Below are positions 14,905-57,532 of a DNA stretch of 64,000 nucleotides, piece by piece. The notes under the pieces were generated by a model. That model did not search any database, was not told where the DNA came from, and saw nothing but the letters and a program-made list of their open reading frames with translations. Both the position numbers and the translations under genes were made by a program. Each line of letters opens with the position of its first letter. Positions within the stretch are counted from its first letter, which is position 1. Location: positions 62,001 to 126,000 of the forward strand of contig NZ_JANGEY010000006.1 in NCBI RefSeq assembly GCF_024451105.1, given 5' to 3'. Origin of the DNA: Stutzerimonas stutzeri. GTDB lineage: Bacteria; Pseudomonadota; Gammaproteobacteria; Pseudomonadales; Pseudomonadaceae.

Positions 14905-15381
14905 TCAGACGCGGATATCGTCGCCTTCGATCAGGAAACGCGGGGCGATGTAGCGCTGGTAGTGCGCCTCGGAGAGCAGGAAGAACTCGCGATCGATGGC
15001 ATCGCGCAGTTCCGGCAGGCTGCTGTCGCGGAACTCCGGCAGCAGGGCGATGCCGTATGCCTCGACGCTGCGGATCTGCCGCGCGCCGCGGGCGATCAGT
15101 TGGTAGGCCCAGCAGTAAGGCGACTGCCGGGCCACGAAACGGATCTGTCGCTGCTCCAGCTGACGGCGCAGCAGCGCCGCATCGAACACCTCCAGCTTGG
15201 CCTGCACCACCTGCACCAGCAGGCTTTCCAGACGCTGCCAGACCGCACGCTTCTCCTCCTCGCCGTACAGGTTCCAGTTCACCACCTCGTGGTGAAAGCG
15301 CTTGCAGCCGCGGCACACCAGATCGCCGTAGACCGTGGAGCAGAGGCCGACGCAGGGAGTCTTGATGCGCTGTTGGGACAT
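14905..15381 (-). CDS. DUF1289 domain protein
   Basis: 158 residues. The N-terminal DUF1289 motif contains four Cys and a His pair: TPCVGLCSTVYGDLVCRGC then KRFHHEVVNW (residues 8-36), probably a small metal-binding module. The rest is helical (RLESLLVQVVQAKLEVFDAALLRRQLE) with an SPYCWAYQLIARGARQIRS block. Function is unknown; the family is widespread in proteobacteria and often beside acnB in Pseudomonas, as here. It is divergent from acnB. Confidence 0.85.
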   Translation of the reverse strand: MSQQRIKTPCVGLCSTVYGDLVCRGCKRFHHEVVNWNLYGEEEKRAVWQRLESLLVQVVQAKLEVFDAALLRRQLEQRQIRFVARQSPYCWAYQLIARGARQIRSVEAYGIALLPEFRDSSLPELRDAIDREFFLLSEAHYQRYIAPRFLIEGDDIRV

Positions 15382-15466
15382 GGCGAAAGGGGCAGGCGAG
15401 GATAACGGATCGGCATGTTAGCCCTTTGTCTAAGCCGGGTCATCCGCCGTCGACCGGGAGTCTTGC

Positions 15467-15495
15467 TTAACTTATCGCGGCCTTTCCATTAGAAT
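15467..15495 (+). promoter_or_regulatory. candidate acnB promoter
   Basis: A TAGAAT -10 at 15490-15495 lies 17 bases after a weak TTAACT -35 at 15467-15472. Transcription would begin near 15502, giving an acnB leader of about 210 nucleotides that contains the structured element at 15530-15715. Confidence 0.5.
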
Positions 15496-15529
15496 CCGCC
15501 TGCCTTGTTACAGGCGCGAATGTCCGAGC

Positions 15530-15715
15530 GAAGCTGTTTTCAAAGCGTCACGAGCACAGTAATACCCGGCAGGAAGCGGTTGGTGGGACGAGCCTCGTCA
15601 GACGACTCTCTCACCGACACCCTTCCGTCACAGCCCGGCGTAAAACTTTGAAAACAGCTTCTGGACGCGAGTCCCGGACTCCCGCATGGGACCACTGATG
15701 AGGGTAATACTGTGC
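15530..15715 (+). promoter_or_regulatory. structured acnB leader with two interleaved inverted repeats
   Basis: Repeat A, GAAGCTGTTTTCAAAG (15530-15545), has its perfect complement at 15646-15661. Repeat B, GCACAGTAATACCC (15554-15567), is complementary (13 of 14) to 15702-15715, which covers part of the GAGG ribosome site (15700-15703) and the GTG start at 15712. The order A-B-A'-B' means the stems form either a pseudoknot or two exclusive folds. Inside A, GTTGGTGGGA (15579-15588) can pair with TCTCACCGAC (15610-15619) with G-U pairs. This looks like a start-codon-sequestering switch in the acnB mRNA. Aconitase B is an RNA-binding iron sensor in E. coli, so autoregulation is one idea. Confidence 0.6.
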
Positions 15716-18321
15716 TTGAAGCCTACCGCAAACACGTAGAAGAGCGTGCCGCCCAGGGCGTCGTGCCCCAGCCGCTGAACGCCGAGCAGACCGCAGGCCT
15801 GGTCGAGCTGCTGAAGAACCCGCCGGCCGGCGAAGAAGAATTCCTGCTTGACCTGATCACCAACCGCGTTCCGGCTGGCGTGGACGAAGCCGCCTACGTC
15901 AAGGCCGGCTTCCTGACCGCCCTGGCCAAGGGCGAAGCCAGCTCCCCGCTGCTGAGCAAGACCCGCGCCGTCGAGCTGCTGGGCACCATGCAGGGCGGCT
16001 ACAACATCGCCACCCTGGTCGAGCTGCTGGACAACGCCGAGCTGGCCAACGTCGCCGCCGAACAGCTCAAGCACACCCTGCTGATGTTCGATGCCTTCCA
16101 CGACGTCGCCGAGCGCGCCAAGAAGGGCAACGAAGCCGCCAAGGCCGTGATGGCCTCCTGGGCCGAAGGCGAGTGGTTCACCAGCCGCCCGGCCGTCGCC
16201 GAGAAGATCACCCTGACCGTGTTCAAGGTGACCGGCGAAACCAACACCGACGACCTGTCCCCGGCTCCGGACGCCTGGTCGCGCCCCGACATCCCGCTGC
16301 ACGCCCTGGCCATGCTGAAGATGGCCCGCGACGGCATCAACCCGGACGTTCCTGGCTCGGTCGGCCCCATCAAGCAGATGGAAGAGCTGAAGGCCAAGGG
16401 TTTCCCGGTTGCCTACGTCGGCGACGTGGTCGGCACCGGCTCCTCGCGCAAGTCCGCCACCAACTCCGTGCTGTGGTTCTTCGGTGACGACATCCCGAAC
16501 GTGCCGAACAAGCGTGCTGGCGGCTTCTGCTTCGGCACCAAGATCGCCCCGATCTTCTACAACACCATGGAAGACGCCGGCGCCCTGCCGATCGAATTCG
16601 ACTGCACCAACCTGGCCATGGGCGACGTCATCGACGTGTACCCGTACGCCGGCAAGGTCTGCAAGCATGGCACCGAAGAAGTCATCACCACCTTCGAGCT
16701 GAAGACCGAAGTCCTGCTCGACGAAGTCCGCGCCGGTGGCCGTATCCCGCTGATCATCGGCCGTGGCCTGACCGAGAAGGCCCGTGCCGAGCTGGGCCTG
16801 GCGCCGTCCACCCTGTTCAAGAAGCCGGTCGCTCCGGCCGACAGCGGCAAGGGCTTCACCCTCGCCCAGAAGATGGTCGGCCGCGCCTGCGGTCTGCCGG
16901 AAGGCCAGGGCGTGCGCCCGGGCACCTACTGCGAGCCGAAGATGACCACCGTCGGCTCCCAGGACACCACCGGCCCGATGACCCGCGACGAGCTGAAGGA
17001 CCTGGCCTGCCTGGGCTTCTCCGCCGACCTGGTGATGCAGTCCTTCTGCCACACCGCCGCCTATCCGAAGCCGATCGACGTCAACACCCACCACACCCTG
17101 CCGGACTTCATCATGACCCGCGGCGGCGTGTCCCTGCGTCCGGGCGACGGCATCATCCACAGCTGGCTGAACCGCATGCTGCTGCCGGACACCGTCGGTA
17201 CCGGTGGTGACTCGCACACCCGCTTCCCGATCGGCATCTCCTTCCCGGCCGGCTCCGGCCTGGTCGCCTTCGCCGCCGCCACCGGCGTGATGCCGCTGGA
17301 CATGCCGGAATCCGTGCTGGTGCGCTTCAAGGGCAAGATGCAGCCCGGCATCACCCTGCGTGATCTGGTGCATGCCATCCCCTACTACGCCATCCAGGCT
17401 GGCCTGCTGACCGTCGAGAAGAAGGGCAAGAAGAACATCTTCTCCGGCCGCATCCTCGAGATCGAAGGTCTGGAAGGTCTGACCGTCGAGCAGGCGTTCG
17501 AGCTGTCCGACGCCTCCGCCGAGCGTTCGGCTGCCGGTTGCACCATCAAGCTGCCGGAAGACGCCATCGCCGAGTACCTGAAGTCGAACATCACCATGCT
17601 GCGCTGGATGATCGGCGAAGGCTACGGCGATGCCCGTACCCTGGAGCGTCGCGCCCAGGCCATGGAAGCCTGGCTGGCCAACCCGCAGCTGCTGAGCGCC
17701 GATGCCGACGCCGAATACGCCGCCGTCATCGAGATCGACCTGGCCGAGATCAAGGAGCCGGTTCTCTGCGCGCCGAACGACCCGGACGATGCCCGCCTGC
17801 TGTCCACCGTTGCCGGTCAGAAGATCGACGAGGTGTTCATCGGTTCGTGCATGACCAACATCGGTCACTTCCGCGCCGCCGGCAAGCTGCTGGACAAGGT
17901 CAAGGGTGGCATTCCGACCCGTCTGTGGCTGGCTCCGCCGACCAAGATGGACGCCCACCAGCTGACCGAGGAAGGCTACTACGGCATCTACGGCAAGGCT
18001 GGCGCGCGCATGGAAATGCCGGGCTGCTCGCTGTGCATGGGTAACCAGGCGCGCGTGCAGACCGGTTCCACCGTGGTCTCCACCTCGACCCGTAACTTCC
18101 CGAACCGCCTGGGCGACGCCACCAACGTGTTCCTGGCTTCGGCCGAGCTGGCTGCCGTGGCTTCCATCCTCGGCAAGCTGCCGACCGTCGAGGAGTACAT
18201 GGAGTACGCGAAGAACATCGACAGCATGGCTGCCGACGTCTACCGCTACCTGTCCTTCGACCAGATGGCCGAATACCGCGACGCGGCCGCCAAGGCCAAC
18301 ATCCCGGTGCTGCAGGCCTGA
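15712..18321 (+). CDS. acnB: aconitate hydratase B
   Basis: 869 residues from a GTG start, the usual AcnB length. It interconverts citrate and isocitrate in the TCA cycle and also has methylcitrate-related roles. The AcnB order is HEAT-like domain (1-160), swivel domain, then the catalytic part with the [4Fe-4S] cysteines in SCMTNIGHF and [12 protein letters not shown] near the C-terminus. [13 protein letters not shown] is an active-site block. The GTG start lies inside the predicted long-range stem described separately. Codon use is strongly biased, as for a highly expressed gene. A strong terminator follows. Confidence 0.98.
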
Positions 18322-18389: not shown

Positions 18390-18405
18390 TGGCACAGCGC
18401 TTGCT
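18390..18405 (+). promoter_or_regulatory. sigma54 promoter of nasST
   Basis: TGGCACAGCGCTTGCT matches the sigma54 consensus TGGCACG-N4-TTGCW with one mismatch; GG (18391-18392) and GC (18403-18404) are separated by exactly 10 bases. Start predicted near 18416, just before the hexaloop hairpin. It suggests NtrC/RpoN control. Confidence 0.75.
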
Positions 18406-18420
18406 TTGCTCGAGTCAGCA

Positions 18421-18506
18421 GAACGCTCCAACGGCGGAGCCGTTCCCCGACAATGGCGTCGTACCCGTCCTTCGCCCCGCGCGATGGCCGGTACGGCGCT
18501 TTTTTG
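18421..18506 (+). promoter_or_regulatory. NasT-type antitermination leader before nasS
   Basis: GCTCC (18425-18429) and GGAGC (18436-18440) close a hexaloop AACGGC (A at position 1, G at 4, as in ANTAR targets); the stem extends through GAAC/GTTC with one bulged C. An intrinsic terminator follows: GCGTCGTACC (18456-18465) pairs with GGTACGGCGC (18490-18499), then six T (18500-18505). The nasS ATG is 22 bases later. Expected role: transcription ends here unless NasT binds the hairpin, so nasST would control itself. Confidence 0.72.
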
Positions 18507-26536: not shown

Positions 26537-26552
26537 TGGCCCGTAACCTGCA
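26537..26552 (+). promoter_or_regulatory. sigma54-like promoter of nasA
   Basis: TGGCCCGTAACCTGCA: GG (26538-26539) and GC (26550-26551) are 10 bases apart; two mismatches to the consensus. Predicted start near 26562, immediately before the hexaloop hairpin. The 130 bases before it (26403-26536) show no gene. Confidence 0.6.
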
Positions 26553-26566
26553 AGGTATCGGCAACG

Positions 26567-26646
26567 GCAGCCAATGGCGGCTGCTCCAACCCGACAAAGG
26601 CGTCGCACCACCCAGCTCCGGCTGGCGTGATGCGGCGCCTTTTTGT
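26567..26646 (+). promoter_or_regulatory. NasT-type antitermination leader before nasA
   Basis: GCAGCC (26567-26572) and GGCTGC (26579-26584) close the hexaloop AATGGC (A1, G4). Next comes an intrinsic terminator: AAAGGCGTCGCA (26596-26607) with TGCGGCGCCTTT (26631-26642), an inner CCAG/CTGG hairpin, and five T. The nasA start is a further 190 bases downstream; the region 26647-26832 has no recognisable gene. Confidence 0.72.
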
Positions 26647-43376: not shown

Positions 43377-43515
43377 GGGCGACGGCAGCAGCCGCCGCCC
43401 GCCGAAAGGCCGTCATTCGTCCATCCTGATGCGGCGACGCACTCAGCAAATGCGGAACTATTTCGAATCCGTTTTAAAACAAGGGGATTCCTGCCGGTAA
43501 AGTGCCGGAGACTGG

Positions 43516-43523
43516 TCAATACT
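43516..43523 (+). promoter_or_regulatory. RpoS-like -10 of the small-RNA gene
   Basis: TCAATACT resembles the stationary-phase -10 consensus CTATACT; predicted start near 43530. Confidence 0.5.
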
Positions 43524-43529
43524 CATCAT

Positions 43530-43650
43530 TACTGATGCGCGGCACCTCCCCCCAAGTGCCCGTCAGGCGGAGCGGCGTGGGAACGCTTGTTCCGGTTTCA
43601 CTCCTAATGGTCTTGACCCGGATTCCCCCCCAGAGTCCGGGTTCTTTTTG
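43530..43650 (+). ncRNA. rgsA: small RNA, probable RgsA (P16)
   Basis: A non-coding stretch of about 120 bases ending in a textbook terminator: ACCCGGATT (43616-43624) pairs with AGTCCGGGT (43634-43642) around CCCCCCCAG, followed by TTCTTTTT. It lies directly upstream of tatD, convergent to it. In P. aeruginosa the RpoS-dependent, Gac-influenced sRNA RgsA occupies exactly this place (between PA2958 and the tatD gene) and is about 120 nucleotides. The RpoS-like -10 agrees. I identify it by synteny, size, promoter and terminator, not by aligned sequence. Confidence 0.72.
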
Positions 43651-57046: not shown

Positions 57047-57532
57047 GCCGTCAAAAGCGGCATTCCGCGCGCATGCGAGCCGACTGCTCGCCGCCGGACA
57101 CACAATCGCCGGACGCCAGGCCGTCCGACGGGTTGCCCGCGCAAGCATCACGGCGACTCGGAAAACCAGGCCTTGAGACACATGAGGTGCGAAACGCCCG
57201 GCGTTTCGCGCAAAAGCTAACCCGCTACGGATTCAGCGAGCGGCACCCCGATTCTCAGGGAATACGTGCAGGGCGGAGATGCACAAACGACGGACTGCGT
57301 AGCACTCGACTTTCCAGACGCCTTGATCGTCCGCAGCGTTGTTTGATTCCTCCTCCTGAATGAGTGCTTCTGTACCCACAGTTAGCAGGAGCCGCCAGTC
57401 GCGCGCAGGCCCAATCGCCTGCGAGGCTTGACAAGGGCAACGGCAAGGCCGTTCCCGGCGCACCTGACACCGACCACGAGAGTCGTGCGTGCCAACCGCC
57501 GTTTCCGGCAGCCCGGAAACCATTGGTACTAC
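57047..57532 (+). promoter_or_regulatory. long structured 5' UTR of rne
   Basis: About 486 bases without a gene. Hairpins: GCGAAACGC (57189-57197)/GCGTTTCGC (57201-57209); AACGG/CCGTT (57439-57453); and GTTTCCGG (57501-57508)/CCGGAAAC (57513-57520) only 12 bases before the ATG. No Shine-Dalgarno is seen between the last hairpin and the ATG. RNase E represses itself through leader hairpins in enterobacteria, and a Pseudomonas-specific rne leader motif (rne-II) has been described; this region is the place for it. Confidence 0.6.

Follow-up and report, generated by a model that had tools for sequence, protein, structure and literature searches.

A conserved structured RNA leader of acnB in Pseudomonadaceae whose predicted helices compete or form a pseudoknot at the ribosome-binding site

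Translational riboswitches and other leaders that sequester the ribosome-binding site (RBS) are conserved 5' leaders whose alternative or pseudoknotted folds cover the RBS. Aconitase B, the product of acnB, is a central iron-dependent enzyme. Passages of PMC4150767 report that aconitase B of E. coli is a moonlighting RNA binder, that RyhB blocks acnB translation, and that apo-AcnB bound to the 3'UTR protects the mRNA from cleavage. In P. aeruginosa, acnB is de-repressed at low iron when prrF is deleted, as stated in an excerpt of PMC2851614. PMC2864571 gives sucA-II and sucC as candidate structured leader RNAs of Pseudomonadales or gammaproteobacteria; by their names, these would stand at TCA-cycle genes. 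Its main text contains neither 'acnB' nor 'aconit', and acnB is likewise absent from the main text of PMC8297930. Among the open-access titles and abstract openings listed, none reports an acnB leader element in Pseudomonas. The results of the present analysis support the view that the acnB leader, apparently undescribed, is a real, family-wide, structured RNA in Pseudomonadaceae with competing or pseudoknotted helices over the RBS.

The acnB locus and the parts of its leader

The window, meaning the whole 64,000-nucleotide stretch of DNA analysed, carries a gene taken for acnB in the initial annotation, and TIGR00117 of NCBIfam confirmed this identity with 1540 bits (cutoff 1287). Only one copy of acnB was seen in the window's genome. 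From the promoter-like element upstream, transcription is predicted to start at about 15503, and the A and B arms should thus both be in the transcript. A matching promoter-like element lay 25-45 nt 5' of A in 144 of the 157 leaders with P2 and enough upstream sequence. For comparison, 158 leaders, whose genera are given the working labels g1 to g19, were reduced by a similarity filter to 90 distinct ones. From these, 25 short leaders (A1) and 46 long leaders (A2) were taken, leaving out four g7 leaders, three g12 leaders, six very long leaders or loops and six close relatives in g6 and g11. The features of the locus are as follows.

15467..15495, + strand: promoter-like element TTAACT-17-TAGAAT (motif scan, 1 found vs 0.1 expected)
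15522..15526, + strand: P1 5' strand, GUCCG (RNAalifold on A1, columns 10-14; pair counts)
15530..15545, + strand: A arm, the P2 5' strand, GAAGCUGUUUUCAAAG (inverted repeat; exact in 82 of 90 distinct leaders)
15546..15549, + strand: P2b 5' strand, CGUC, partner GGCG at 15637-15640 (RNAalifold on A2; 99.5% of cells paired)
15551..15560, + strand: B core, CGAGCACAGU, the anti-start segment (p 0.003 vs shuffled loops, window)
15561..15567, + strand: extension of B in the window, AAUACCC, facing GGGUAAU at 15702-15708 with one mismatch (inverted repeat)
15593..15601, + strand: anti-SD segment, CCUCGUCAG, facing CUGAUGAGG at 15695-15703 (p 0.01 vs shuffled loops, window)
15637..15640, + strand: P2b 3' strand, GGCG (RNAalifold on A2, pair counts)
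15641..15645, + strand: UAAAA bulge between P2b and P2 (UAAAA in 79 of 90 distinct leaders)
15646..15661, + strand: A' arm, the P2 3' strand, CUUUGAAAACAGCUUC (inverted repeat; exact in 62 of 90 distinct leaders)
15662..15666, + strand: P1 3' strand, UGGAC (RNAalifold on A1, columns 163-167)
15671..15675, + strand: hairpin C 5' strand, GUCCC, partner GGGAC at 15688-15692 (RNAalifold, pair counts)
15688..15692, + strand: hairpin C 3' strand, GGGAC (RNAalifold, pair counts)
15695..15703, + strand: CUGAUGAGG, the stretch that the cis anti-SD faces; also the predicted seed site of PrrF (predicted from complementarity)
15700..15704, + strand: Shine-Dalgarno (SD), GAGGG (spacing to the GTG at 15712)
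15709..15718, + strand: B' core, ACUGUGCUUG, containing the GUG start (complement of B, pair counts)
15712..18321, + strand: acnB, aconitate hydratase B, 869 aa (ORF, NCBIfam)

The inverted repeats described in the initial annotation were recovered. A (GAAGCTGTTTTCAAAG) and A' form a perfect 16-base repeat (15530-15545 / 15646-15661; 16/16 complementary), B at 15554-15567 is complementary to B' at 15702-15715 at 13 of 14 positions, and this right arm holds the GGG of the SD and the GTG start at 15712-15714. A second, independent search gave the same repeats as I1 and I2, with I2 at 15553-15567/15702-15716 (93%). When 15501-15730 was shuffled 1000 times with dinucleotides kept, no perfect inverted repeat exceeded 11, against 16 in the real sequence, and the leader strand folded at -97.5 kcal/mol (z = -3.1), an energy as low being reached in 1 of 200 shuffles. 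The order A-B-A'-B' likewise stood, with one correction: as A and B do not overlap, the RNA is not forced to choose between them, and a pseudoknot with both is possible.

An ATGTCC about 10 nt 5' of A is common, and the ORF that it opens in the window has 43 codons and ends inside A'. Both features would suit a leader-peptide attenuator, in which translation of a short upstream ORF across A and B opens the hairpin. However, an ATG within 40 nt 5' of A is missing from 26 of the 88 leaders in the first set, the ATG of g6 is in another frame, and the ORF ends vary. With neither ATG nor frame conserved, this explanation was rejected as very improbable. Perfect inverted repeats directly after a promoter could also act at the DNA level, as transcription-factor sites or a cruciform, but most changes in the arms keep G-U pairs, the stems on either side show covariation of RNA pairs, and the RBS has matches in both B and the anti-SD. 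The mostly pair-keeping changes in the arms and the covarying flanks led us to reject a repeat of DNA only, to which we give next to no credence.

Other elements were observed in the window. GTTAGCCCTTTGTCTAA at 15417-15433, 5' of the acnB promoter, recurs 5' of acnB in other Pseudomonas loci and may belong to the promoter from which the divergent gene 14905-15381 is read. This gene had no NCBIfam match, and we take its product to be a DUF1289-like protein. Rfam matches over the gathering score comprised the rne-II leader (57262-57522, +), the RgsA sRNA (43444-43640, +) and two narK RNA motifs (26538-26606, +, and 18391-18462, +), the second of which was barely above the cutoff (44.6 vs 43.2 bits).

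Conservation and distribution

Leader DNA matched 290 of 298 sampled Pseudomonadaceae genomes (E<=0.001), many matches covering part of the query only. Loci were examined in two sets, the best 80 acnB loci and 87 regions drawn from 81 of the 97 family genomes with a match; 12 of the 29 loci among L083-L111 were left out, their start not being located. The sets overlap (e.g. L012/L085), and locus counts are therefore not species counts. Both A and A' were present in 70 of the best 80 loci, the other 10 being from other families (seven), from Halopseudomonas (two) or cut by a contig end (one). The conservation of the arms across the family, named as a check in the initial annotation, was borne out by 70 of 81 primary Pseudomonadaceae loci with both A and A'; P2 was missing in all 10 g5 loci and in the single g3 locus among the primary loci. 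Six paralogous or decayed acnB copies were also without A/A'.

P2 hardly varies in sequence. Besides its exact copies, the A arm showed a change keeping a G-U pair in five of the 90 distinct leaders, and the A' arm one A-to-G change keeping a U-G pair in 24. All 16 pairs, G-U counted, can form in 87; the other three, all of g7, carry a single mismatch towards the upper end of the helix. The presence of this near-unchanging 16-bp helix throughout the family calls for a binding partner.

Of 18 family genomes chosen for a search with model R1 of the leader, 13 gave a full match at acnB and the other five (g5, g3) matched over the RBS end only (78-109 nt), the remaining weak matches being P2 on the opposite strand. 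The leader is single-copy, at acnB, and no further copies were found in the genome, making it a single-copy candidate RNA family. Outside Pseudomonadaceae, the leader core was not found among 145 genomes of the order and 369 of the class. The leader DNA search of the 145 order genomes matched 12, five in the family and seven at the RBS only. R1 matched 17 of the same genomes, the five of the family at full length and 12 over short stretches (35-59 nt, 23-33 bits), of which seven were shared with the leader DNA search. The A pattern matched five of the 369 class genomes, two in the family (0 mismatches) and three elsewhere (3 mismatches), and a reversed A-pattern control also matched three. For the window leader and 20 related loci, no Rfam family reached the gathering score and only sub-threshold matches (E 8-9) were obtained, in agreement with the initial statement that no described element was known here.

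Several loci deviate from this arrangement. A second acnB-like gene without the leader, 79-86% identical over the first 100 residues, is present in L183, L186, L191 (g1), L194 and L196 (g11). L182 (G027, contig C12) carries an extra, apparently truncated acnB start with an open frame of 118 aa, a decayed A arm and one change in A'. The g5 leaders (L130-L132, L145, L152, L157-L160, L170) are without P2, keep the RBS hairpin and share a different conserved sequence 3' of the same kind of promoter; in most of them CAGUUACC could face the RBS.

Base pairing, complementarity to the RBS and alternative folds

RNAalifold predicted P1 flanking P2, P2 itself as A/A', and hairpin C from A1, and P2, P2b (CGUC/GGCG) with the UAAAA bulge, a hairpin D in the loop, and C from A2, where P1 was not predicted. 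A pairing of 5' UGUCCG with the CGGACA of hairpin C was dropped, as RNAalifold on A1 found P1 instead. The named pairs were formed in 94.6% of the cells of A1 and 94.7% of those of A2; sliding the partners gave at most 47.1% and 43.0%, and shuffling the columns gave 93.8% and 93.2%, respectively. Double changes in A2 affected nine pairs and 31 cells, against 4.1 and 6.2 in shuffles (0/500 each), and were located in P1 (one pair), B (one), D (five) and C (two). In A1, 13 cells had double changes against 4.7 in shuffles (0/500), in two pairs, a number reached by 163 of 500 shuffles. P2 had no double changes in either set, its sequence being too invariant, and its pairing thus rests on conservation, wobble changes and P1. 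The anti-SD had none in A2 because the SD is nearly invariant. B was paired in 98.4% of cells in A2 and in 84.8% in A1, which includes seven g18 leaders without B, and a pair-keeping change from G-C to A-U occurred in L019 and L135. Covariation of both stems, a further check named in the initial annotation, was found in part: in one pair of B, and in P1, D and C, and not in P2.

The element is thus larger than first described, comprising P1, the near-invariant P2 with its UAAAA bulge, B and, in many genera, a second, anti-SD loop. In g18 leaders L184, L185, L187 and L188, a small hairpin with changing stems (GGGUUAAACCC, GGGUUUUACCC, GGGUUUCGCCC and GAGUUUUACUC) replaces B just 3' of the A arm. 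Long leaders of A2 have an extra domain between A' and hairpin C, absent from the window's clade, consisting of a small hairpin with a variable stem (GCGGC/GCCGC, CAGC/GCUG) and an A-rich loop (e.g. CCAAAAA).

B has its complement in the start region; the second loop, CCCUCAUCAG, which many genera have, has its complement in the SD. Compared with dinucleotide-shuffled loops, 65 of the 90 distinct leaders reached p<=0.05 for the start complement and 53 for the SD complement; the window had p of 0.003 and 0.01, respectively. Both tests were failed by g7, g18 and g19, the start test by most g6 and the three g12 leaders, and the SD test mostly by g15, g17 and g9 leaders, with single failures elsewhere; in g7, g18, g19 and most of g6, B no longer has a complement at the start or keeps a degenerate one. 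Among 59 leaders with an SD complement, chosen by score, 54 hold it in the quarter of loop windows with the least pairing (median rank 0.09); for the window's own segment the unpaired value was 0.58 and the rank 0.18. It is placed in an apical loop in g6, L019, L030, L058, L095 and L195, and in a bulge or junction in many others. In g12, B is shifted to pair with the SD spacer (L193, GUAUUAUC/GGUAAUAC; L197, GUAUUACC/GGUAAUAC), and in three of four genomes, two of them close relatives, the loop changes together with the SD, with CCCUCUUU or UCCUCUUU matching it; L197, the fourth genome, is without such a match. Within these data, g12 is the one genus whose sequences support covariation of the anti-SD.

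As the arms cross in the order A-B-A'-B', a nested fold holds either P2 or the RBS helices. When each fold was forced in the 67 leaders with B, the two differed by a median of 3.3 kcal/mol; 51 of these leaders had a gap of no more than 6 kcal/mol, and the closed fold was the lower in 17. Furthermore, P2 was forbidden by penalties in 85 of the 90 leaders (five longer than 330 nt were left out), with 20 shuffled RBSs for each. The loop then paired with a median of 19 of 29 RBS bases, compared with 4.4 for shuffled RBSs. The median cost was 4.6 kcal/mol, and 11.0 kcal/mol when the RBS was shuffled. The cost was below the leader's own shuffled mean in 72 of 85 leaders, and at most 1 of 20 shuffles was as low in 58 of 85; in the window it was 2.3 against 9.9 kcal/mol, with 0 of 20 shuffles as low. 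The closed nested fold was no better than shuffles in g6, g7, g19 and most g18 leaders, and its advantage was weak in some leaders of g10, g12 and g9. In g6, g7, g19 and most of g18, a pseudoknot or another role of P2 must therefore hold. On capture of the RBS, P2 may open as in a switch or stay as in a pseudoknot, and genera may vary in this respect.

Two readings without a switch bear on these results. P2 and the loops facing the RBS might be formed permanently together, as a static pseudoknot or kissing element that sets a fixed low translation or a ribosome standby. This arrangement is allowed by the lack of overlap between A and B and by the linkers of 30-252 nt between A' and the SD among the leaders listed, and it agrees with g6, where P2 is intact, the anti-SD lies in an apical loop free of any pairing and the P2-open fold does not surpass shuffles. 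However, in most leaders with B the two nested folds have similar energies, which speaks against it, and a static tuner leaves the invariant sequence of the 16-bp helix unexplained; we regard it as unlikely, though with some weight. Alternatively, the main role of P2 could lie in processing or stability, such as that of an RNase III site or a 5' cap-like hairpin, with the complementarity to the RBS secondary. The double-stranded P2 is indeed the most conserved part, even where the RBS complement is weak (g7, g18, g19), but that complement has been kept through different sequences, positions and registers across genera, making a mainly processing role improbable.

Proposed control of acnB and comparison with known systems

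Of 18 genomes, among them that of the window, 14 have PrrF (12 over the cut-off), as do all 15 of a chosen set from the family (11 over the cut-off). A comparison limited to the seed and the RBS showed the PrrF segment CCUCAUCAG to be complementary to CUGAUGAGG, the acnB SD, both in the window and in the majority of the genera compared; in an unrestricted PrrF scan of the window leader, other sites ranked first. The cis anti-SD is thus a near copy of the PrrF seed. In g12, the complement of the PrrF seed was absent from the acnB RBS, and PrrF keeps CUCAUCAGG in all four genomes (CUCCUCAUCAGG in three and GUCUCAUCAGG in G029). Three of these four genomes have a cis loop that follows the SD, with CUCAUCAGG kept in PrrF. 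The reading of the CCUCAUCAG loop as a mere copy of PrrF that tracks it was rejected on this ground.

Considering these results, the leader is probably a cis-acting translational control element of acnB in Pseudomonadaceae. The conservation, the complementarity beyond chance in most genera, the partial covariation and the two nested folds close in energy in most leaders support this. Sequence and folding models give strong signs that the leader may capture its own RBS, and such capture would control translation. The g6, g7, g18 and g19 leaders fit capture only partly, and g5 and g3 are without P2. We propose that the nascent RNA would fold into the P1/P2 hairpin, whose loop would show two segments complementary to its own RBS, B to the GTG start and the anti-SD to the SD. 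With the RBS captured, translation would be off and the predicted PrrF site in the SD hidden; with the loop segments free, ribosomes would bind and, at low iron, PrrF too.

A trans-acting factor presumably reads the near-invariant P2 and its UAAAA bulge. Response of the leader to iron, AcnB, citrate or another metabolite, called plausible in the initial annotation, is putative. Apo-AcnB is the first candidate for the factor reading P2, though a rather doubtful one. It is a tentative possibility, somewhat less doubtful than that candidate, that the leader represents a bistable class tying the synthesis of aconitase B to the iron-sulfur state of that enzyme or to a TCA metabolite through a P2-reading trans factor, the closed state, with its near copy of the PrrF seed, both silencing translation and making the mRNA immune to PrrF. 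The leader would then be a concrete meeting point of iron, the TCA cycle and an sRNA in Pseudomonas and relatives.

RBS-sequestering leaders share with the acnB leader a conserved 5' position and, as predicted for the latter, alternative or pseudoknotted folds over the RBS. Riboswitches, in contrast, have a compact pocket, whereas the most conserved part of the acnB leader is a long plain helix, and we file it as a variant of the RBS-sequestering leader RNAs rather than as a riboswitch. sucA-II and sucC (PMC2864571) are similarly candidate structured leader RNAs in Pseudomonadales or gammaproteobacteria, but the acnB leader does not match them, no Rfam family having reached the gathering score. 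PrrF in P. aeruginosa concerns the same gene (excerpt of PMC2851614), and its CCUCAUCAG and the cis CCCUCAUCAG face the same SD; however, PrrF is a trans sRNA, whereas the cis loop of the leader follows the SD in three g12 genomes. The control of acnB in E. coli, in the passages of PMC4150767, has in common acnB, iron, an sRNA at the RBS and a silent mRNA kept from decay. In E. coli, the site of apo-AcnB binding is in the 3'UTR, close to an RNase E site, whereas the present element is a 5' leader, located 5' of the acnB start and not at the 3'UTR position of the E. coli type. By analogy, the closed state of the leader could shield the mRNA from PrrF and so do a similar job to that in E. coli by other means.
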